From assembly GCF_002979865.1 (NCBI RefSeq), contig NZ_PCPZ01000004.1, positions 62,001 to 126,000 of the forward strand: a stretch of DNA of 64,000 nt. Direction: 5' to 3'. The notes under the pieces were generated by a model that saw only the letters and a program-made list of their open reading frames with translations, did not search any database and was not told the DNA's origin. Origin of the DNA: Arthrobacter sp. MYb214. Its GTDB lineage: Bacteria; Actinomycetota; Actinomycetes; Actinomycetales; Micrococcaceae. This document shows, piece after piece, positions 9,562 to 34,380 of this stretch. Position 1 is the stretch's first letter. Each line of letters opens with the position of its first letter. A program made the translations under genes and the position numbers.

Positions 9562-9568
9562 GCAAATG

Positions 9569-9641
<73 letters not shown>

Positions 9642-9702
9642 GTATTCAATTTTGAAGTTTCCACTCCAAGATCAATCCAACCGGATCAATCAAAAAGAAT
9701 TA

Positions 9703-9724
9703 GCGGAAAGTTTTCACTTTCCGC
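9703..9724 (-). terminator. Terminator behind tRNA-Ala copy 2
   Basis: Nine-bp stem GCGGAAAGT with GAAA loop on the minus strand, followed by TAATTCTTTTTG. Same core as the hairpin behind copy 1, showing that the tRNA and its terminator were duplicated together. Confidence 0.75.
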
Positions 9725-9736
9725 CACTTTCTTTTG

Positions 9737-9809
<73 letters not shown>

Positions 9810-9816
9810 AAAAGCT

Positions 9817-9936
9817 TTAGGAAACTTTATCGGCTACCTGATGCCAGGTTTCCTTCGTTTCCGACGAAGCCTTCGCTTTCTTGACCAAGACTACTGCAGC
9901 AGCCGCGATCGATGCGAGAACCAGGAACTTTTTCAT
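9817..9936 (-). CDS. DLW-39 family protein (39 aa)
   Basis: Encodes exactly 39 residues: a hydrophobic N-terminal helix (MKKFLVLASIAAAAVVLVKK) and a short polar tail ending ETWHQVADKVS. Length, helix and the W-containing tail match the actinobacterial DLW-39 family, which lies between tRNA genes near gyrA in Micrococcales. Preceded by GAGGGAG as ribosome binding site. The usual D-L-W triad reads E-T-W here. Function is unknown; a small membrane peptide. Confidence 0.85.
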   Translation of the reverse strand: MKKFLVLASIAAAAVVLVKKAKASSETKETWHQVADKVS

Positions 9937-9967
9937 TACTCCCTCTTTCTCTCCAGCAAGGTTTCCG

Positions 9968-10041
9968 TGGGCGTACCAAGACTTGAACTTGGGACCTCTT
10001 CGTTATCAGCGAAGCGCTCTAACCGCCTGAGCTATACGCCC
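9968..10041 (-). tRNA. tRNA-Ile(GAT)
   Basis: 74-nt cloverleaf on the minus strand starting GGGCGTATAGCTCAGGCGG, anticodon GAT in GCTGATAAC, T-loop GTTCAAGTC, discriminator A. Conserved gyrA-tRNA-Ile-tRNA-Ala order of actinobacterial origins. Confidence 0.97.
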
Positions 10042-19166: not shown

Positions 19167-20603
19167 CTAGTGCTCCCGCTGGCTCTGCTTAATCCGGTTG
19201 GTTAGCTCGGTGACCTGATTAAAGATCGCTCGGCGCTCGGCCATGAGCTCACGGATCTTACGATCCGCGTGAATCACGGTGGTGTGGTCGCGGCCGCCAA
19301 GTTCTGCACCAATCTTCGGCAGCGACATGTCGGTAAGCTCACGCAGCAAGTACATGGCGATCTGGCGCGCGGTGACCAAAGTACGAGTTCGCGACTTGCT
19401 GTTCAGCTCATCAATACTCAGTCCGAAGTACTCTGCGGTCTGCTTGATGATGGTCGACGGCGTGATTTCCTGGGCCCCGTCTTCGCTGATCAAGTCCTTG
19501 AGCACGGTTTCGGCCAATGCAAGGTCCACGGGCTGGTTATTCAGCGACGCGAAAGCGGTGACACGGATCAAAGCACCTTCGAGTTCCCGGATATTCGTGG
19601 AAATACGCGAAGCAATGTACTCCATGACATCACTTGGAGCTGAAAGATTTTCAGCGTCGGCCTTCTTACGCAAAATCGCAATACGCGTCTCCAGCTCTGG
19701 TGGCTGAATATCGGTCAGCAGGCCCCACTCGAAGCGCGAACGCATGCGGTCTTCGAATCCCTGCAGCTGCTTGGGAGGCAGATCAGAGGTGATGACAACC
19801 TGCTTGTTGTGGTTGTGCAGCGCATTGAAGGTATGGAAGAACTCTTCCTGGGTAGCGTCCTTGTTGGCCAAGAACTGAATGTCGTCAATGAGCAGAATGT
19901 CGACATTGCGGTAAGTCTGCTTGAAACTTGCGCCCTCGTCGTCGCGGATCGAGTTGATGAAATCATTGGTGAACTCTTCGGAGTTCACGTAGCGCACGCG
20001 GATGCCCTTGTAGAGATGGCGTGCGTAGTGGCCAATGGCATGCAGCAAGTGAGTCTTGCCCAGACCTGAATCACCATAGATGAACAGCGGGTTGTAGGCC
20101 TTGGCCGGCGCTTCGGCAACAGCAACGGCTGCGGCGTGGGCAAAGCGGTTCGATGAGCCGATCACGAAGGTGTCGAAAATGTACTTCGGGTTCAGCCGGC
20201 CGAACTCCTGCGAATTCGATGGGGGAGTTGGCTGCGGTGCTGGCTGGGGGCGCGGACCAGGAGTCTCAACGACTGCTGGAGCTGACGGCGCGGCGGCTTT
20301 GGCTTCAGGCTCATCTTCTTCGAGCTCATCCGAGAGCGAGAGATCAACGCTGACGGCGCAACGGATCTCGTCCTGGAAGACTTCTCGCAGTGCTTCATCC
20401 AGCGGCTCGCGCAGCTGAGTCTGCAGAATATCGCGGGTGAGGTCATTGGGTACCGCAACTAAGAGCGTCGTACCGATTAGTCCCTGAGGTTTAGCCAGCG
20501 ATACGAAGGCACGGTAACGCGCCTTGACGCGATCATCATCCTCGATCTTCCGGATGACTTGGCGCCAAGAGCTACCAATGCTATTGGTTTCGTCGCTGCT
20601 CAC
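19167..20603 (-). CDS. dnaA: Chromosomal replication initiator DnaA
   Basis: 478-aa AAA+ initiator. Domain I (residues about 1-90) is followed by a Pro/Ala/Glu-rich linker, then domain III with Walker [14 protein letters not shown] and Walker [11 protein letters not shown], and domain IV with the DNA-binding signature [18 protein letters not shown] at 20603 preferred: GGGG 8-9 nt upstream and the start [13 protein letters not shown] fits the family; a TTG at 20633 would add 10 residues. Both flanks carry DnaA boxes, so autoregulation is likely. Confidence 0.96.
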
Positions 20604-20720
20604 TAAGGGCGCCCCGCTTCCGTTTAAATGCAATCTTGGTCACAAGAATCCTGTTTCCAGGCTTCTGAAACGTCGTTTTCTGGACCACGTCTGCATTGAT
20701 TCTATCCATCATCCACACAG

Positions 20721-24326: not shown

Positions 24327-24348
24327 AATCTGCATGACTTGTTTTGAA

Positions 24349-24364
24349 TGTTTCACGTGAAACA
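24349..24364. promoter_or_regulatory. parS: parS site 1 (parA leader)
   Basis: Perfect 16-bp palindrome TGTTTCACGTGAAACA, the bacterial parS consensus bound by ParB. Located between the rsmG hairpin and the parA ribosome binding site, so it can both nucleate segregation complexes and place ParB at the parAB promoter. Confidence 0.95.
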
Positions 24365-24421
24365 TTATCGGTGCACGCCATGAGCATTAGGTGCATCAAT
24401 TCACGAGGAGGAGTTTTACCT

Positions 24422-25345
24422 TTGTCTAAGACTAAGGATTCATCGGATAGCGCGTTTGATTTCAACGACTCGTCCTCGCCTTTGGCTACTCAGATAGCTA
24501 GTGAACATCGTCGTCGCGAAGCTTTGGAGGCCCGCAAGGTGCCAATGCCTGAGAAGACCCGCTATTTCACCATTTCCAACCAGAAGGGTGGCGTAGGCAA
24601 GACGACGACCACGGTCAACCTTGCCGCCGCCCTGGCCAAGGGCGGGCTAAACGTCCTGGTCATTGATATCGACCCGCAGGGCAACGCTTCTACCGCGCTG
24701 GGCATTGAACACCACGCTGAAGTAGACAGCATTTATGACGTGTTAATCAATGATCTTCCATTGGCTGACGTAGTAGCCACATGCCCAGACTTGCCAACCC
24801 TGCAGGTCGCTCCTGCAACCATTCACCTGGCAGGCGCTGAAATCGAGTTGGTTTCATTAGTAGCCCGCGAACAGCGCCTGCAGCGCGCCCTGGATGACTA
24901 CGCGCGTACCCGCCAGCGCAAGGGGCTGCCTCGCCTGGACTACGTCTTCATCGACTGCCCGCCAAGCCTAGGCCTGCTGACCGTTAACGCCTTCGTTGCC
25001 GCTCGTGAAGTTCTCATCCCAATCCAGTGCGAGTACTATGCGCTCGAGGGCCTGAGTCAGCTACTGAAGAACATTGAAATGATCCAGAAGCATTTGAACT
25101 CCAAGCTGACGGTTTCGACGATACTGCTGACCATGTACGACGGTCGCACGAATTTGGCCGCGCAGGTCGCCAACGAAGTCCGTGAGCACTTCCCAGAGCA
25201 GGTGCTCAAGGCCGTCATCCCTCGTTCGGTACGAATCTCTGAAGCGCCGAGCTACCAGCAGACCGTCATTACTTATGATCCAAATTCGACTGGTGCATTG
25301 TCGTACTCCGAAGCAGCCGTAGAGATGGCTGAACGAGGCGCGTAA
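24422..25345 (+). CDS. parA: Chromosome-partitioning ATPase ParA
   Basis: 307 aa from a TTG. The deviant Walker A KGGVGKTTTT and the switch VFIDCPPSLGLLTVNAF define ParA/Soj. Works with ParB-parS to move origins. The TTG at 24422 was chosen because GGAGG lies 9-10 nt upstream; an in-frame ATG at 24380 (MSIRCINS) has no such site, and a frame reaching 24344 would translate parS. About 65 residues precede the ATPase core, a long N-terminal extension typical of actinobacterial ParA. Confidence 0.94.
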   Translation: MSKTKDSSDSAFDFNDSSSPLATQIASEHRRREALEARKVPMPEKTRYFTISNQKGGVGKTTTTVNLAAALAKGGLNVLVIDIDPQGNASTALGIEHHAEVDSIYDVLINDLPLADVVATCPDLPTLQVAPATIHLAGAEIELVSLVAREQRLQRALDDYARTRQRKGLPRLDYVFIDCPPSLGLLTVNAFVAAREVLIPIQCEYYALEGLSQLLKNIEMIQKHLNSKLTVSTILLTMYDGRTNLAAQVANEVREHFPEQVLKAVIPRSVRISEAPSYQQTVITYDPNSTGALSYSEAAVEMAERGA

Positions 25346-25543
25346 GACCTTATAAATACGTTTCACGCTGGAAAAGATCATCCCCTTAGATTTTCGTTTG
25401 TTTTTCCAGATCTATCTGATGCGGATGCGAGATTCGTACGGTGAGAGCCACGGCTGACGCACTGTGCGCATCCCCGGTTCAAAGCCAAAAAACAGTAGAC
25501 TAGTCTCGGGCTGAAATTTCGGATGAAAGGGCGTGCGAAGAAC

Positions 25544-26737
25544 ATGGCAGATAAGAAGCGGGGATTGGGCAGGGGACTGGGTGCCCTTATTTCCAGCTCA
25601 CCGGCGACGGCGGCTCCTGAAGAAAACCAGAATGTTTCACGTGAAACAGCTCCTGTAGAACCGGCCGCGGAACCGTCGAAGTCGCGCGCCACACGTCCTG
25701 TCGATATGTTCTTCGAACCGGGACGCAAGTCCTCGGCACCTAAGGCGCCAACCACTCCCGCAAAGCCGGCAAAGCGCGCTCGCGCAACTATGCCTGGCTT
25801 GAATACAACTCTTGGGGGAAAGAATACCTCTGCACCTCAGGAAGACGCACCAGCTGAGAAACCAGCAACTAAGAAGACCGAGCCGCAACCTGTAAAATCA
25901 GACTCTCCCGATCTTGTCGAAGTTCCTGGCGCACAGTTCGCTGAACTCGACGTCCAGCTGATTCACCCAAATCGCAAGCAGCCGCGTACCAACTTCGATC
26001 AGGAGCACATGGATGAACTCATCCATTCGATCCGCGAAATTGGATTGCTTCAACCTATCGTGGTCCGCCCTTCCCGCGAGAAAGATGACGCTCCGTATGA
26101 GCTGGTCATGGGTGAACGCCGTTGGCGCGCGACACAGGCGGCTGGCCTAGCGACTATCCCGGCCATTATCCGCGACACGCATGACACCGATCTGTTGCGC
26201 GACGCCTTGCTCGAGAACCTGCATCGGTCACAACTGAATCCACTGGAAGAGGCCGCTGCTTATCAGCAGCTTCTAGAAGAGTTCAATTGCACCCAGGAAG
26301 TGCTTTCAGAACGAATCGGACGATCCCGTTCGCAGATTTCCAATACGATTCGCTTGATGAAACTACCTCCACTCGTTCAGCGTCGTGTTGCGGCTGGCGT
26401 TCTTTCTGCCGGTCATGCGCGCGCGTTGCTAGGACTGTCGAACAACGAAGTCATCGAGCAGCTGGCTCAGCGAATCATCAATGAGGGCTTGTCCGTGCGC
26501 GCGACCGAAGAAGCAGTGGCACTGAGTGACGACAAGCCACGAAAGCCAGCAAAGAAGGCGCGAGAGACCCAGCGCAATGAACGCCTGGACTTCCTGGCAA
26601 CTTCGCTCGCGGACCGCTTGGACACTAACGTCAAGATTCAGCTTGGCAGCCGCAAGGGCAAAGTCAGCATCGAGTTCGCTTCGGTGGATGATCTGAACCG
26701 CATCATGCAGGTTATTGATCCGACTATGAACTCGTAA
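25544..26737 (+). CDS. parB: Chromosome-partitioning protein ParB
   Basis: 397-aa CTP-dependent clamp. It begins with the ParA-contact peptide KKRGLGRGLGALI, followed by a disordered Ala/Pro/Lys-rich linker of about 110 residues. The N-terminal CTPase domain is seen in MGERRWRATQAAG and LLENLHRSQLNPLEEA, the HTH near ERIGRSRSQISNTIRLM, and the dimerisation domain at the C-terminus. A parS site lies inside the linker-coding region, where it is read as VSRET. ATG at 25544; an in-frame ATG at 25523 is less likely. Ends at a parS-containing hairpin. Confidence 0.96.
   Translation: MADKKRGLGRGLGALISSSPATAAPEENQNVSRETAPVEPAAEPSKSRATRPVDMFFEPGRKSSAPKAPTTPAKPAKRARATMPGLNTTLGGKNTSAPQEDAPAEKPATKKTEPQPVKSDSPDLVEVPGAQFAELDVQLIHPNRKQPRTNFDQEHMDELIHSIREIGLLQPIVVRPSREKDDAPYELVMGERRWRATQAAGLATIPAIIRDTHDTDLLRDALLENLHRSQLNPLEEAAAYQQLLEEFNCTQEVLSERIGRSRSQISNTIRLMKLPPLVQRRVAAGVLSAGHARALLGLSNNEVIEQLAQRIINEGLSVRATEEAVALSDDKPRKPAKKARETQRNERLDFLATSLADRLDTNVKIQLGSRKGKVSIEFASVDDLNRIMQVIDPTMNS
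25633..25648. promoter_or_regulatory. parS: parS site 2 (inside parB)
   Basis: Perfect TGTTTCACGTGAAACA within the 5' part of parB, translated as part of NVSRETA. Coding constraint is relaxed in the disordered linker. Confidence 0.93.
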
Positions 26738-26748
26738 TTTCATGAACT

Positions 26749-26776
26749 GGCGCATGTTTCACGTGAAACATGCGCC
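26749..26776 (+). terminator. parS: parS site 3 embedded in the parB terminator
   Basis: A 28-bp perfect palindrome (26749-26776) whose core 26755-26770 is an exact parS. The palindrome is directly followed by TTTCTTG, so the same sequence can fold as an intrinsic terminator for parB and serve as a ParB-binding site in duplex DNA. Confidence 0.85.
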
Positions 26777-26796: not shown

Positions 26797-26812
26797 TGTT
26801 TCACGTGGAACA
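26797..26812. promoter_or_regulatory. parS: parS site 4 (one mismatch)
   Basis: TGTTTCACGTGGAACA, one base off the consensus, 42 bp centre-to-centre after the parB terminator parS. Likely weaker ParB binding. Confidence 0.75.
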
Positions 26813-27887
26813 AATACTCCATGCGAGGTTACTGCCAACCAAGTATGAGGGCGGCACATGGAGATGAGTCGTTGGTGGGTAGGAAACCGCTGCTGTCCAT
26901 AAACGGATACTTAGGTGTGCCCGCATAGCTTTCGCATCAAATGGATCATGAACCACAGCAAGCATAAAACTGATTGTTGGCATCCGTCGTTGGCTTATCA
27001 AAGAGGGAACGTACACGCCGATGGCATGAGCACGAAGTAGCCACGACGCTGTCCAGAAATGTAGAAAAAGCAGGACACACCGTACCAGGTTCGGGATTGG
27101 CACCGCATCGCTGAGCCGAGCCCATCACCTCGCTTCGTAACCATTCTCCGATGCCTGCTCCTGAGGATCAGCGAGCCATTCAGTTTAGGTCACCGAAATG
27201 CCTCCACTTAATGAATTCTACGGAGAACGGGAAGAGGATAGAACGCATGATTCGAGCCGCCTGGCTGCGGGAACTACCCCAGCGGATACGGATTTGGGCA
27301 GCCAGTATTCTGCTTGGTAGGACATCCGGGGCGATAGGTGCCGCATTTGGTGCACAGTATTCCGGCTACCTTCCAGTGCGAAGGAGAACACAAGGTGCGA
27401 TCAGTAGAGACACTGATGGTTTTCGCGGTCTATCCCTGCCTGGCTCTACTCCATCTAATGCGCAGTGGCATGTGTCAGCCATGCTTCTTAGATTGTTCGA
27501 GGACTGATGTGCAAGGGAGCCAGGATGCTGTCCGCAACTGAGCACAACTCCGAAAACATTGGACCGAGAAGCTGTATCGGGCGATTCCAAGGGTACGTTT
27601 CATCGTTCTTGCTTAGGGCAGATAGGCAACGGCGTTGAGCAAGGACTGCATACAGCATGTTCTGGAACAGCAAGATCAGATAGTCAGGCATACCGTGATG
27701 ACTCTCTGAGCAGCAAGGTGGGCGTGTAGCGACGCCACGAGAGCGGGGAGTCGGGTAGGGGAGAGGAAGGCTCGCACGAAGGCCGTGAAGGGCCAAGGAA
27801 GGCCGCTATGGACTTATGGCAGGACCAACCGGGGGCAAGTTCGGAGGGGTGCCAACGCTAACTGAATGCTAACCATTGAACGACTTT
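26813..27887. other. Gene-free decayed stretch after parB
   Basis: About 1.1 kb with only short, mutually overlapping frames, no supported ribosome binding sites and no recognised protein similarity. Base composition is visibly less GC-rich than the flanks and third-position GC bias is absent. In relatives this position next to parB and trxA usually holds a cell-wall amidase gene (cwlM-like); no trace of it was recognised. Probably relic DNA. Confidence 0.6.
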
Positions 27888-28956
27888 TGAATATTCACCC
27901 CACCTGATCCATTCAACAGACATTCTGAGGGTAGGATCAATGTGGAACAGTACGCAGAGATCCGTCGACTGCATTGAGCAGAAGGCGTGCCAATAACGGC
28001 GATCTCGCGGCGACTTGGCATCCCACGTAACACCGTATGCTCAGCATTGGCAGTCACCGAGTCTGCAAATGACCTGTAGACGAAGCGTGGTTCCATCGCT
28101 GACGCTTTCGAACCAGAAACCCGCAGGCTGGTCTGCGAGTATCCGCGCATGCCGGCGACGGCCATCGACGAACGAATCGAATGAACGAATTCCATCTCCA
28201 CGTTGAAGAACCGGGTCGCACTGATATGTCCGGAATACACGAACGTGGGCCCTGCGGACCGGTTGGTCCACGAATCAGGGCAAGCCGCGCAAGTGGATCT
28301 GTGGTTCCCCAAGCTACGGACACCTGTCGGATCCGACCAGGCTCTGATGCTGCCGGAGCTGATGATGAGGCTGTCGCATTTGAGGGTGTTCAAAGCGCTG
28401 ATGATTCCTAGTTGGCAATGCCCGGATCTGAGCGTTGGGATGTGGAGCTAGAACGACGATGATGACGCGGTCCTCAAGAGCAGAATCTGGGACCGTGAAT
28501 CCGCGATTCGGAAGCAAAAGGAAAGACACGGAAGCCAATTCAGTGCTTGCCGAGCCGCTGGCTAGCAGGACCATTCTGGCTCCACCGAGAGATTCTGAGT
28601 TCAAAGAGCAAACCGAATGCAACCAGTTGCTTGAATCCTCTTTCCTTCAGAATCTCAGCAAACAGCTCGACGGGTGTCTACCGAAAGCCAATGTACACCG
28701 TTCAGCCCGATCCAGGTCCGGAGCATCGACCGGTCGCCGTAGGCTCTAGGCACAATGATCATCTCGCCTTCGATGCCATCAGTACCGGGCTCAGCCATCG
28801 GGCACGATGGAGAAGGACCTATAGCATGAGTCTGGGCCGCAATAATTATTTGGTGCATCCTTCAGACATTGGCCGGATTGTTGATTCCACGGTGACCATG
28901 GATAGAGGGTCTGCGGCCAGTTGGTGGTGGCTGATCCTCCGCGGTGCTGGACAAGC

Positions 28957-29450
28957 TGAATATTGGACTTTTCGAGAGCCGCCAATATTGCGGTTCTGAG
29001 CCACCCAGTATTCTGTCCGCGCGCGCCGGTGGTTGCGTCTTGCTGCTGGATGAGTGGCTTTTGGATCCTCCAGCCGGCGGGTTGCTGAGAATCATCTTCG
29101 AGCTCATAGGGTGGCGGTATGACGCTGCATCCACCATTTTCTGTACGCAGTACAAGCAATCGGATTGGCGTGCCCGGCTGGACGCTGGTGCGTTGGCCGA
29201 CGCGATCATGGATCATGTCGTGCACGATACGATTTGGGTTGAGACCGGTGGGCTCAACATGTGTGAGGTGTACTCTCGGCCGGAGCATTAGCCACGGGGC
29301 GTTGATTCGATGGAATCCTCGTTCAGGACTGCCTGCCGGACTGATGATCCGGCAGGTGGCTCTAAGGGAGACTATTGGGTGGATCTGAACCACAATAACG
29401 ACTGGCCCAGAAGCGCAATATTGGGTGGCTCTCAAACCACCGAATATTCA
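28957..29450 (+). mobile_element. Miniature IS21-like element nested in istA
   Basis: 494-bp insertion. Termini are inverted: both begin TGAATATT and, with one indel, share GAGAGCC-(A)-CCCAATATTGCG-TTCTG over about 36-45 bp. Each end carries a second, tandem copy of the GAGCCACCCA(A/G)TATT module, as in IS21 multiple terminal repeats. The direct repeat CAAGC flanks it (28952-28956 and 29451-29455), and removing element plus one repeat joins VVAD... to KHQMITDPAHV of the host istA. Inside is only the 3' part of an istB gene, so it is an internal-deletion derivative. Confidence 0.88.
29010..29291 (+). pseudogene. istB: 3' fragment of istB inside the miniature element
   Basis: An open frame gives LLLDEWLLDPPAG, then RYDAASTIFCTQYKQSDW, ADAIMDHVVHDTIWVETGG and NMCE: the C-terminal half of an IS21 IstB ATPase helper (Walker B through sensor region). 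The Walker A half and all of istA are missing. It has no stop codons, unlike the host istA relic, so this insertion is younger. The frame reads through from the left terminal repeat. Confidence 0.85.
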
Positions 29451-29629
29451 CAAGCACCAGATGATTACCGATCCGGCACATGTGCAGATTACTGCGTTGT
29501 GCGTTGAGCAAGATCCGACGCACAACCGTTATTTGGCCACGACCACGGCCGCGTGGTCGCGTCACGCTAGGTATCGGCCGGCAATAGAATCCCTTGCCTA
29601 GACATCCACGACTTTCATGATGACCAGTA

Positions 29630-30209
29630 ATGCGTACTTCGGAAGAAACGATTGAGCAGTTGGCGAGAGCCATGAAAATGCCATCAATCTGTCGGACGTG
29701 CAAGTAGCATGTTGATCCAGCACATGATGAGGGATGGACTCGTGAAGCCTGCCGGGCCAGGACGGCGATCATCCCGACAGCTATGCTCGTGACCTGTAGA
29801 GGACCGCCATGGGCGGTGAATACTAACTCGCGTATTGCGCTGGGTGTCAAAGCCTGCCGGCAGTGGTATCCAATGCTCTTCGATGAACAGCTCTGGCTGC
29901 GCGTAAAGGTTGGTGGCGGCGCATCACGGAGGGAAATCGACTCATGAGTTGCCGCGTCTTATGCAATACAAACTGTTGATCATCGTCAAGGTGGATTACG
30001 TTCCATTCGGTGCTGCGGCCGTTGATGCAGCTGATCGTTATTAACAGAAGTCGGTGCTAACCAGGTCCAATCCGCCGATTGTCCGCTGGGGTGAGGCCAA
30101 TGGTGCCGAGGTTGATGCCTCGGCGAATACTGATTGCTCGGTTCACCCTGAGGAGAGGCTGTCTTCGCCTAACCATCCATATCGGGCGAAGAACCGTCCG
30201 GTTTGCTGA
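29630..30209 (+). pseudogene. istB: Decayed istB of the host IS21 element
   Basis: Fragments read SEETIEQLA.RAMKMPSI at the start, then YKLLIIVKVDYVPFGA (degenerate Walker B of the D-EVGYIPF type), NPPIVRWGEANG and a C-terminal YRAKNRPV. Order and content fit IstB of the type ending NKPFGRWGEVFGD..., but the Walker A part is lost and stops intervene. About 580 bp remain of about 750. It belongs with the istA relic and is a different IstB subtype from the nested fragment. Confidence 0.78.
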
Positions 30210-30616
30210 CCAATGCCGAGCTGGCGTAGGGAGAATTGGACGGTACAGGTCCGATTCCGTTTGACGATAAGAAGGCGATCTTCAGTTGGCGTTGCGGGCA
30301 TGACCGGAACTTCTTATGTCGAATGCGCCATGCCGTGCGATGGGGGAGTGGTACTAGCCCTTCCCGAAGCCATTACGCGCACCTTGAGCCAGGGCACGCT
30401 GATGAGAATCAACGACTCCATTAAGATTCCTGACGCAGGTGTGGGATTAACATTGGTGCGCACCCTTGCCGAACCGACATCCAGATCTCTAGAAATCCGA
30501 GTTCGAGCTGTCATGAAATCGTGTCACCGTCTCTCGAATTTCTTGAATCGGCGACTGCGACTGGTGGGGGGGGCGGAACCGCAACATGGACACTGAAAGC
30601 AGCTGCCTTGAAGCAA
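30210..30616. other. Relic DNA between istB and the parS array
   Basis: No intact gene. A short plus-strand frame around 30345-30440 reads ALPEAITRTLSQGTLM, reminiscent of the ALPE..RRS(I/L)TWDQG-EM region of IS30-family transposases; too short to be sure. The right terminus of the IS21 relic should lie here but was not recognised. Confidence 0.35.
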
Positions 30617-30758
30617 CGTTTCACGTGAAACATGATCCAGACCGCCCTTCGAACCTGCTGACGTCTGCGAAGCGAAACGTGTTTCACGTGAAACACTAAC
30701 TAGGCCGCCCTTTGATTGTCCTGAATTCAACGATGCGCTTGGTGTTTCACGTGAAACA
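30617..30758. repeat. parS: Three-unit 63-bp tandem array, each unit led by parS
   Basis: parS cores start at 30617 (CGTTTCACGTGAAACA, first base off), 30680 and 30743 (both perfect), exactly 63 bp apart. The 47-bp spacers are also related: units share a core like CCAGACCGCCCTT-GA after parS. On the minus strand the array is open in one frame, giving VSRET followed by a partly conserved SKGGL segment every 21 residues. 63 bp is six turns of B-DNA, so the sites face the same side. Confidence 0.88.
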
Positions 30759-33011
30759 ACCAGAACGACCTGAAAGCACATGCAGGTTTGACGTTGCACA
30801 GAATGGAGCGGCCACGCACGACCTGGGCACCCCGCCCCCGAGATGAATAGCTAATGATGCTATACCCACTACCCGCAGGCTGACAGCCTCTGCTGAGATG
30901 AGGCATAAGAAGCTTGCTGAATACATGCGTAGGCCTGTACGAGCGCCGGAGAGGACCTGTCTGGCCGGTGCCTACGTGAGAGGACAGTGATCAGCCTGCG
31001 GCTTGCGGCGCGGACATGAGGAAGTTCGTTCCAGCGCCAAAAACCCGGCGAGCACGCACGGCGTGCAGGAAAGTAATAGCGTCGCGAGATGCCGAGGGAT
31101 AACTTGACCCTTGGTCCCATACGCGCGGAAGGTGAAGCCTGGATACGATCGTCCAACCACTTCAACGCCAGCAGCTGACAGGAGGAAATGACGCCAAGGC
31201 CCTAGGGAGGGGTCGAGGCAACAGATGGCCAGAAAGCCTTAGGAGTGCTTATGAGGCCGCAGAAGCGCGTCCTAGGCGGATGTATGGGTCTCCGGGAGCC
31301 CTGTCGGGCATGAGCGGCCCGGCAGCGCTCCAGATCCCGCTCATGAGCAAGGTGAGCGAAGGGAAATCCAGAAGGATCACAACCTTCAATCCAAGAGAGT
31401 AGGAGGATTAGCGGTGAAATAGGTTCACTAGAGTCTCCGCAAACCCGGCTCAACCCGCTCCTGCTTTTGTCCCGGTTCGAAGGAACTATTCACTAGAAAA
31501 AAGCCCCAAGGTAACTAGCGCGGGAATTCGGACCAAGCTGTCCATGCACCAGCCGCGCAATAGGTAGGCATGATGCCGTGGAGTGCGAAGCCCCAGGTGC
31601 CGAAGCCCGTAGTAGCGATCAACCTAAATTTCTCAGGGTTGGAGAACTGGGCGAAGACCTCCATTAATTGAAAGGCAAGAGAACCTGAAGGAGGGAAGCG
31701 TGTGAATGAAAGAACTTATATGTGGGGTTAGTACTGGCCCTCGGGGAAACCGACTTCCCGAAAGATAGGTAGCGCGCTGTTCAGAGTTAGTTGATTGCAC
31801 TAGGACCTAGTGCAGAATCGCAATGACCTGATCAGAGAGAAACCCCTCCGATCACTAGCAGATTGGAGATTCAGGCCTTCTCTTCGCGAGTCGACAGTAG
31901 GGCAACGAGCATGAGTCTAAGGCCTTTGTCCCTGATGCAGGTTCTACCGGCAAGCTTCGCCCCGATGGGTATGAACAGCTATTCAGCGATGATGTGGCTC
32001 GTTCGCTCCACGGCAATCGACCTCAGATTCATTCAATCTTCGACAGGTCGCACCTCATCATTACCCAGCGGCCCATGTGACAGTTGCGCAGTGGGTGATG
32101 ACGTATCGGCACGAAACATGGTTTGGGCCGCAGCAACTGACTTACGACAACAACTCACAAGCCGAAAGATTCTGTTCTGCTTACTGCGTGCCAGTTTAGC
32201 CAGAGAACGTCCTCAGGAACTCGTTGCTGAACCGTTCGGACTTTGGAAGAGATAGCGTCATGGATTCTGACGATTGACGGCGAAACAGTAGGCTCAGTGA
32301 GCAACCAGTGGATACGCGGAAGGGGAGAGCTCCGCTAATTCCCTGGAACTCCGTTAGCCCTGGCAGTTCTCACTGCGCGTTGAACCCTCCCCAATAATCA
32401 AGACCAAGAGATGCTGTTCCAGCTAAAGACGCCCATGAAAACTGAGTGTCGCGGCGACACGGGGATGCGGCAGTCGGCATGGCCTGGATTATCCATGGAC
32501 AGAATTTGACGCAATTTCGACCGGAAGCGGATAGTCCCATGAGTAATTGGTTTTGGCTTTCTCTCAGAAAGCACATCCGCTCAGCTAGCATGTACGGCGT
32601 ATCCGGATGCGTTTCCGCGGCCCTTCACAGTACAGTCTGGAATTGTGGGCCGAAGTTGAAGGGCTAGAAATACGGAGATTGCGGATCGCTGAATTTTGCA
32701 TAGGACATCAAGATTCAGAATTCGGGAACCTGTCTAGGTGGCCAGAGAAACGATCAAATGCGAACCCGAACTTGCCGGGTCCATTGCTGAGCATGAAATG
32801 CGCATCTTGGCTGACGGGTGCCAAAGAACGGTGCAAAGCGTCATAGAACAGAGCCAGAATCATAAAAACAAATATTTTGGCTTGGATATTCGCAACAGCA
32901 TGTCAAAAGGGCCTTCAGATGAAGAACCGGCTCAACCTGAGCTGGGGTAAGGGTCGGAAACGGCCAGAAAACGAAAGCAAGTGAACTTCTCGCGGCGCCA
33001 CGGTTAAATAA
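30759..33011. other. Gene-free stretch between the parS array and trxA
   Basis: About 2.25 kb with no supported gene. Frames are under 135 codons, lack good ribosome binding sites and match no family I recognise. The part near 31560-31760 (GAAGCCCGTAGTAGCGATCA, then a purine-rich stretch) superficially recalls the leader of group II intron reverse transcriptase genes, but no domain V or RT motif was found. The 32.6-32.95 kb part has an open plus-strand frame of 70 codons (MARETIKCEPELAGS...) of unknown meaning. Likely decayed mobile DNA. Confidence 0.55.
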
Positions 33012-33047
33012 GAAGTGGGGACCAACCTTGCGGTTGATCCCCACTTC
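33012..33047 (-). terminator. Terminator after trxA
   Basis: 16-bp stem with one G-T type mismatch (33012-33027 / 33032-33047) and GCAA tetraloop on the minus strand, followed by TTATTTAA. Ends the trxB-trxA transcript and marks the right border of the relic region. Confidence 0.85.
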
Positions 33048-33062
33048 AATCATGTTCTTGGC

Positions 33063-33386
33063 TTACAGGTATTCTGCGAAGTCCTTTTCGATGACAGCCT
33101 TCGGCTTGGCACCGATGGAAGTAGCGACATGCTCGCCGCCCTTGAAGACGTATACGGCTGGGATGCTGGTGATGCCGTACTTCGCGGCAATGCCCTGGTT
33201 CTCATCGACGTTGACCTTCACGACGTCGACCTTCGCAGCGTGCTCTTCTGCGATCTGATCCAGGATTGGACCGAGCTGGCGGCAAGGGCCGCACCATTCA
33301 GCCCAGAAATCGACGATCACTGGCTTGTCGGCATCCAGGACATCGGCCTGGAAGGTTGCTTCAGTTACTGCTTTTGCGTTGCTCAT
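33063..33386 (-). CDS. trxA: Thioredoxin
   Basis: 107 aa, active site WCGPC with Cys32 and Cys35, and cis-proline in TSIPAVYVFKGG. Reduces protein disulfides using electrons from TrxB. ATG at 33386 with GGGG(T)TGTCTC upstream. Immediately follows trxB (28 bp), a standard actinobacterial pair. Confidence 0.97.
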   Translation of the reverse strand: MSNAKAVTEATFQADVLDADKPVIVDFWAEWCGPCRQLGPILDQIAEEHAAKVDVVKVNVDENQGIAAKYGITSIPAVYVFKGGEHVATSIGAKPKAVIEKDFAEYL

Positions 33387-33414
33387 GAGAGACAACCCCT
33401 TTCTGAGAAAACTA

Positions 33415-34380
33415 TTAGGCGGTAGCGAGGGTTTCGGAAACGTTGGCCAGGTAGTGCTCCACGTCCTGGGCCGCGGCGCAGCCCGAGCCGGCCGCGGTAA
33501 TGGCCTGGCGGTAGGTGGAATCGATGACGTCGCCGGCGGCGAAGACACCTGGCAGCGAGGTCTTGGATGTGCGGCCTTCAACGGCGATGGTGCCCTCGGA
33601 AGTCAGCTGCAGCTGGTCCTTGACCAGATCCACGCGTGGGTCGTTGCCGATGGCCACGAAGATACCGGTGACATCCACGGTGGATTCTTCGCCGCTGGTG
33701 CGGTTCTTCACGACCAAGCCTTCGACCTTATCGGCACCGTTGATGCCGATGACTTCGGAGTCCCAGATGAATTCGATCTTCTCGTGGGCCAGGGCGCGGT
33801 CGGCCATGATCTTCGAAGCGCGCAGCTCGTTGCGGCGGTGCACGACGATGACCTTGGAGGCGAACTTGGTCAGGAACAGTGCTTCTTCCATGGCGGAGTC
33901 GCCACCGCCGATCACGGCGATTCTCTGGTCGCGGAAGAAGAACCCGTCGCAAGTGGCGCACCAGGAGACGCCATGGCCAGAGAGGCGCTTTTCGTCCTGC
34001 AGGCCCAGCTCGCGGTAGGCGGAGCCGGTGGAGACGATGACAGCACGAGCACGGTAGATGGTGCCGTCAGCCAGGGACAGCGTCTTGATTTCGCCTTCGA
34101 GGTTCATTTCGGTGACGTCATCGAAGAGGATCTCGGCGCCGAAGCGTTCGGCTTGCTTCTGCATGTTGTCCATCAGGTCTGGGCCCATGATGCCCTCGGG
34201 GAAGCCGGGGAAGTTCTCCACGTCGGTGGTGTTCATCAGTTCGCCGCCGGCAGTGACTGAGCCGGCGATGACTAGTGGGTTCAGATTCGCACGGGCGGTG
34301 TAAACCGCGGCGGTGTAACCGGCCGGACCGGAGCCGACAATGATGACGTCGCGGATTTCGTCGTTCTGTGCTGAAGTCAC
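33415..34380 (-). CDS. trxB: Thioredoxin-disulfide reductase
   Basis: 321 aa from GTG 34380 (GAAAGGG upstream). FAD motif IVGSGPAGYTAA, redox pair CATC (Cys141, Cys144), NADPH motif GGGDSAMEEALFL and C-terminal AAGDVIDSTYRQA. Passes NADPH electrons to thioredoxin. A longer in-frame reading to 34530 runs through the hairpin at 34411 and is rejected. Confidence 0.97.
   Translation of the reverse strand: MTSAQNDEIRDVIIVGSGPAGYTAAVYTARANLNPLVIAGSVTAGGELMNTTDVENFPGFPEGIMGPDLMDNMQKQAERFGAEILFDDVTEMNLEGEIKTLSLADGTIYRARAVIVSTGSAYRELGLQDEKRLSGHGVSWCATCDGFFFRDQRIAVIGGGDSAMEEALFLTKFASKVIVVHRRNELRASKIMADRALAHEKIEFIWDSEVIGINGADKVEGLVVKNRTSGEESTVDVTGIFVAIGNDPRVDLVKDQLQLTSEGTIAVEGRTSKTSLPGVFAAGDVIDSTYRQAITAAGSGCAAAQDVEHYLANVSETLATA

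Follow-up and report, generated by a model that had tools for sequence, protein, structure and literature searches.

The three parS palindromes at 30617-30758 are, as judged from their sequence, of the ordinary parS kind and make up the distal parS cluster of the Glutamicibacter chromosomal ParABS system, where ParB is predicted to bind. The cluster lies in a gene desert between the convergent genes parB and trxA, and another parS, at 26755, looks like the core of a putative intrinsic terminator of parB. This setting of desert and parS-terminator is more interesting than the array itself. We assign a probability of roughly 0.8 to the whole account, in which a distal parS cluster lies in a transcription-poor desert, its triplet arose by duplication, and its helical phase is not selected. 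The account starts from observations on the sites, their conservation, the drift of the desert, the IS relics, and the covariation of the hairpin.

parS sites and the distal cluster

The window, i.e., the whole analysed stretch of 64,000 nucleotides, belongs to a genome of 3.72 Mb whose family we take to be Micrococcaceae. Relatives by ParB are G. nicotianae (92% identical), G. uratoxydans, G. ardleyensis, G. soli, G. protophormiae, and some entries named "Arthrobacter sp." The gene order is dnaA (minus strand), parA and parB (plus), an interval of 6.3 kb, trxA and trxB (minus), and murJ (minus); we assigned these names by recognition and those of ParA and ParB also by orthologues. The open reading frame (ORF) of parA (24344-25345, plus), with an orthologue in 17/17 congeners, contains a parS within its 5' end (24349-24364). 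A second parS (25633-25648) lies in the ORF of parB (25523-26737, plus), whose orthologues in 17/17 congeners are 74-92% identical. After parB, a perfect 28-bp palindrome (26749-26776, plus) surrounds the parS at 26755-26770 and is followed by a T-rich tract. Another parB-proximal parS with one mismatch (26797-26812) starts 42 bp after the one at 26755. The desert (26816-33011) is bounded on its right by a terminator hairpin of trxA (33012-33047, minus) with a 16-pair stem and a T-rich tail, which faces the desert and is readable by eye at the same place in the 17 congeners. The trxA ORF with a long 5' extension (33063-33581, minus) is convergent with parB.

Array site 1 (30617-30632) reads CGTTTCACGTGAAACA and has one mismatch; site 2 (30680-30695) and site 3 (30743-30758) both read TGTTTCACGTGAAACA. 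The sites match the 16-bp palindrome of the TGTTTCACGTGAAACA type, presumably the chromosomal parS consensus, and thus belong to the chromosomal ParABS centromere sequences. Their start-to-start distances are exactly 63 and 63 bp, and the tandem centromere-like cluster that the first-pass annotation had described was borne out by the three sites. The array is near parAB (24344-26737) and dnaA (19167-20633), in the origin region. As parB ends at 26737, the array is 3.9 kb from it, in agreement with the 4 kb given earlier. Seven good parS sites, each with 0 or 1 mismatch, were found in the window (24349, 25633, 26755, 26797, 30617, 30680, and 30743; 3/7 in the array, which the first-pass annotation had put forward as a candidate main ParB loading zone), versus 0.16 expected from shuffles at up to 3 mismatches. 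The same threshold gave 16 parS-like places genome-wide. Nine of them are outside the window, one with a single mismatch (C15:19554), two with 2, and six with 3 mismatches; a backwards control pattern gave 3 places in the whole genome. The 12-mer core TTTCACGTGAAA has 6 exact copies in the genome, 6/6 inside the window and 3/6 in the array.

The annotation had called the spacers partly conserved. This is true of spacers 1 and 2, which are identical at 28/47 positions, more than in any of about 200,000 pairs drawn at random from the desert; it does not extend to the stretch 3' of site 3, which matches the two spacers at 9 and 10 of 47 positions. The two 63-bp units (30617-30742) look like a tandem duplication. 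Both array flanks resemble those of a doublet in L023, the closest relative fetched (ParB 92%), and the flanks of the cluster in L024 showed no significant likeness to those of the window. By these comparisons, a tandem duplication of one 63-bp unit within this lineage probably produced the triplet, with loss in the relatives as the alternative; one such duplication is the simplest history of the array.

The first-pass annotation had proposed alignment with relatives as a check on the 63-bp spacing, which it read as six B-DNA turns. A distal parS cluster is indeed kept, with spacings of 51-81 bp, in 15/18 Glutamicibacter genomes including that of the window, but the 63-bp spacing is not. Of the 17 congeners, 12 have a distal cluster of two sites and two (L032 and L034) one of four sites. 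L037 has two distal sites 251 bp apart, L038 has one distal site, and L039 has no pair; the genus can therefore do without a tight cluster. Two genomes of genus g44, from the same family, have three sites at distances of 84 and 80 bp and two sites at a distance of 77 bp, respectively.

That a spacing of 63 bp places three ParB clamps on one face of the DNA, with the phase under selection, could draw on the 63/63 spacing of the window, on 63 bp in L023, L024, and L027 (4/18 genomes with the window), and on 64 bp in L025, L030, and L031. The cluster spacings nevertheless range widely, with 51, 55, 66, 67, 68, and 80 bp among the further distal values. A Rayleigh test at 10.5 bp, run on 23 spacings between distal sites (51-84 bp; 20 in Glutamicibacter and 3 in genus g44, without the 251-bp pair of L037), gave R 0.19 and p 0.44; 12 spacings, one per clade, gave p 0.55. 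The 13 proximal pairs (39-54 bp) gave a phase with p 0.03, but these rows are related species. The conserved whole-turn spacing of a helically phased operator array was thus not found for the distal clusters. Helical phase as a conserved property was rejected on these grounds, and the exact phase of the array would not be the selected property. We regard selection on phase as quite unlikely.

The annotation had also noted a minus-strand frame with VSRET every 21 residues. This frame exists within an ORF of 91 aa that spans the array (30524-30799). The suggested origin from a repeated coding segment was rejected, because VSRET is parS read in one frame, the frame is not shared in relatives, and the ORF matched no Pfam family at cut-off. 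VSRET also appears in the reading frames of ParA and ParB. An open frame shared across two distal sites is absent in 9/10 relatives tested, although L023 has both distal sites in one open frame of 42 codons. No conserved homologue of the array ORF has been found so far. That the array is a coding leftover is hardly credible on this evidence; the frame reads as a by-product of parS.

The interval between parB and trxA

The distance from the ParB match to the TrxA match, taken as the length of the interval, is 3.5-8.2 kb in 18/18 Glutamicibacter genomes. Among the other family genomes in which trxA was found, 10/28 have a gap under 1 kb between parB and trxA. The interval measures 2.4-8.0 kb in L065, L067, L070, and L077, which represent further genera, and 6-10 parS with at most 2 mismatches are scattered downstream of parB in these genomes. 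The distance from cluster to trxA is 1,357-2,308 bp in 15/17 and that from parB to cluster 1,427-5,845 bp. The apparent constancy of the former was given no weight, because the coefficients of variation are alike (0.36 versus 0.38, two outliers included).

The desert drifts fast. By blastn, most species pairs share under 10% of it. In four sister pairs, its K2P distances were 0.12, 0.39, 0.38, and 0.52 versus four-fold K2P distances of 0.09, 0.32, 0.22, and 0.15; the desert values come from the better-aligned blocks alone and understate the divergence. The last value, for L026/L029 (0.52 versus 0.15), covers 1,262 of 5,062 aligned columns, and misalignment or recombination may contribute to it. 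A hypermutable, indel-free desert was rejected, as the divergence is equal to or above that of four-fold sites and one indel occurs per 24-34 substitutions.

The good parS sites stay intact on this background. We counted changed positions in parS with at most one mismatch, leaving out 2-mismatch sites, and found 0/80, 0/64, and 1/80 in three sister pairs whose deserts diverge by 30%, 30%, and 11%, respectively. The corresponding P values for retention are about 3e-12 (0/80), 4e-10 (0/64), and 2e-3 (1/80). The value for the low-divergence pair L030/L031 (P 0.002) is weak, and the flanks of its distal doublet differ by only 5%. In the fourth sister pair, 3/3 desert parS with at most one mismatch are 16/16 identical. 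Sites with 2 mismatches do change between sisters (one in L032/L034 and the second sites in L026/L029). Between the window and L023, which are too diverged to align well, site 1 is misaligned (5/16), and sites 2 and 3 match at 15/16 and 16/16. Since good parS remain intact in a desert whose divergence equals or exceeds that of four-fold sites, we conclude that the parS sites are selected, as the annotation had suggested. The locus thus shows strong selection on 16-bp words within otherwise drifting DNA.

The description of the surroundings as gene-free needs qualification: the desert has no recognisable intact gene, but decayed IS21 pieces surround the array, consistent with the decayed mobile genes noted earlier. 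An istA piece (27927-28376, plus) matched IS21 transposase genes on two plasmids by blastn at 64-66% and contains an HTH_23 match below cut-off (27972-28043). Two istB pieces at 29037-29252 (plus; PF01695, E 6e-07) and 29904-30197 (plus; PF01695, E 6.6e-06) were the only matches above cut-off in a six-frame Pfam scan of the desert. The desert resembles the IS21 family in its istA and istB pieces and differs from it in that they are decayed in the window, whereas L024 keeps an open istA-like frame of 520 codons in its desert. The pieces at 27927-30197 probably stem from two decayed IS21 copies, and the interval may be an IS21 insertion hotspot at the centromere. The longest desert ORF (214 aa, 28791-29435, minus; 10 base shuffles: mean 152, largest 184) is antisense to an istB relic and matched no Pfam family. 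A structured RNA at 28940-29480 (z about -5 on both strands) was rejected, as this block is IS21 istB with inverted repeats. No known RNA family was found in the desert above threshold; one match at the trxA end had E 0.06 and lay below the gathering score.

IS21 also occurs in the relatives. With the L024 proteins as tblastn queries, pieces were found in 9/18 deserts, and L034 and L036 have short matches to the IS21 block of the window. The IS21 copy of the window as a DNA query, which is biased towards the desert copy and yielded several matches that are short end repeats, matched 11/18 genomes, 8 of them with matches within the desert and 6 with matches elsewhere; in the genome of the window itself, it was found nowhere else than in the desert. 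The desert of L033 contains a transposase-like ORF of 257 aa, presumably of the ISAs1 family. The desert tolerates insertions and perhaps even favours them.

These insertions raise the possibility that the desert is an IS21 graveyard, in which parS is incidental and ParB loading anywhere near the origin suffices. The frequency of IS21 in the deserts and the two istB relics of the window fit such an origin, and repeated IS21 insertion alone could account for the desert length. However, the nine deserts in which tblastn found no IS21 piece still measure 3.5-7.1 kb, and good parS are retained against the drifting background. We consider the graveyard possible but doubtful and prefer a desert with a selected distal parS cluster. 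A lost amidase gene as the source of the desert was also tried and rejected, as it left no trace (best tblastn E 0.14).

The palindrome after parB

The 26749-26776 palindrome folds as RNA with -23.2 kcal/mol (z -4.1), and a terminator scan calls it terminator-like. This call alone means little, because the whole stretch gave 8 matches versus 5.5 in shuffles. Array site 2 was marked by the scan as well (7 pairs, minus strand, 30696-30679), but pairing at the array sites extends past the 16-mer by only 0 or 1 pair, and we therefore do not read them as terminators.

Pairing around parS depends on the position of the site. In Glutamicibacter, 17/31 parS within 150 nt after parB have at least 6/8 flanking positions paired, one per genome except L033, versus 0/55 sites further on and 2/36 upstream. 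For 31 further family members from 30 genera, the counts were 16/26 after parB versus 5/85 further on and 0/85 upstream. For covariation, we chose 34 sites by position alone, namely the first parS within 60 nt after the end of the parB match, from 17/18 Glutamicibacter and 17/31 other genomes of the family, so that the rows are related. In this set, 155 cells changed on both sides versus 55 in shuffles, and the covariation score of the hairpin arms was 0.594 versus 0.169; neither value was reached in any of 500 shuffles, and sliding the partner abolishes the signal. Counting the pairs in which both sides changed at all did not discriminate (13 versus 11.8 in shuffles, 77/500). The parB strand has 5.76 T per 12 nt after the stem (33 sites) versus 4.00 on the other side and 2.84 in the background, and the tract is weak in several relatives. 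Thus, both marks of an intrinsic terminator, a hairpin kept by compensatory change and a T-rich tract after the stem, were found at 26749-26776. Free energies of -29.8 versus -8.5 for 33 sites picked for pairing serve as illustration only.

The palindrome might instead be an extended ParB site or form a cruciform in the DNA, as palindromic DNA as such would allow and the weak T tract of some relatives might suggest. Yet the arms vary in sequence and remain paired, and the T tract favours the parB strand. Moreover, L033 (G008) keeps a 16-pair hairpin after parB (-29.1 kcal/mol) in which parS is replaced by another palindromic core. We therefore hold a longer site or cruciform to be unlikely.

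Similar composites occur at other gene ends. In L076 and L086, a parS lies within the hairpin at the trxA end, and the trxA strand carries the T tract; in L068, one lies within a hairpin at the end of a neighbouring minus-strand ORF, which we labelled amidase-like by recognition of its sequence. In L071, parB and trxA are 89 bp apart with one parS hairpin between them. Two distant parS that pair in this way, one in L066 (which lacks a T run) and one in L061, add no support. Among the best 30 loci per search, which represent about half or less of the sampled genomes, the composite was found in 5/29 loci of the order sample (two of this family, one of which is the genome G069 already counted, and three of family f8) and in 0/27 further loci of the phylum sample, all of which lack a parS with up to 2 mismatches in the 120 nt that follow parB. 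A literature search, with most subscription journals out of its reach, found no published account of a parS inside a terminator.

Proposed function and known systems

ParB, a CTP-binding protein, forms a clamp at parS, slides along the DNA, and recruits ParA and SMC; roadblocks can stop its sliding in vitro. From the architecture of the locus, we infer a function along these lines. ParB-CTP clamps would load at the three array sites and slide outwards, as established in other bacteria, and clustering may raise the local loading rate and be of advantage. The array would do so within the 6.3-kb interval, which both parB and trxA face with terminator-like hairpins, the one on the parB side apparently built round parS. 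As these convergent hairpins face the interval, it is probably a transcription-poor zone for ParB loading and sliding. Promoter-like matches in 26.5-33.2 kb (2 versus 3.9 in shuffles) lend weak support to a promoter-poor desert. The sequence of the interval would be free to drift and to gather IS21 insertions, while the parS words, and a cluster as such, would be kept; the desert itself may be drifting DNA that is tolerated or kept as a spacer.

Many members of the family, and three genomes sampled from another family of the order, may put one DNA word to two uses: as double-stranded parS for ParB loading and as the loop-proximal RNA stem of the parB terminator (in single genomes, at the end of trxA or of an amidase-like gene). 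Together with the desert between convergent terminators, this would make a transcriptionally insulated centromere with a distal cluster, in which transcription stops where clamps load. We give this idea an even chance. A natural locus with loading sites in a terminator-bounded desert, and with a further loading site inside a putative terminator, bears on how ParB clamps spread along transcribed DNA and offers a direct test of centromere shielding from transcription. Two reports bear on this idea: in Caulobacter, modelling indicates that ParB spreading is largely unaffected by transcription (PMC10387095), and ParB is reported to be able to bypass roadblocks (PMC9242446). Both weaken the case that an insulated zone is needed.

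Two known systems are comparable in the portions of their reports available to us. Corynebacterium glutamicum, likewise with an actinobacterial chromosome, has ten parS near the origin (parS1-10), nine of them intergenic, with two pairs less than 100 bp apart; its sites are spread over 35 kb, and the portion available mentions no gene desert or parS-terminator (PMC7083940). Myxococcus xanthus has a dense cluster of 22 parS in about 3 kb, about 4 kb from parA, but its sites are upstream of parA and the lineage is unrelated (PMC3899335).

Elsewhere in the window, an Rfam scan reported no rRNA. We observed two tRNA-Ala(TGC) genes and a tRNA-Ile gene side by side (9568-10041, minus) and a Guanidine-III riboswitch (2271-2336, minus).
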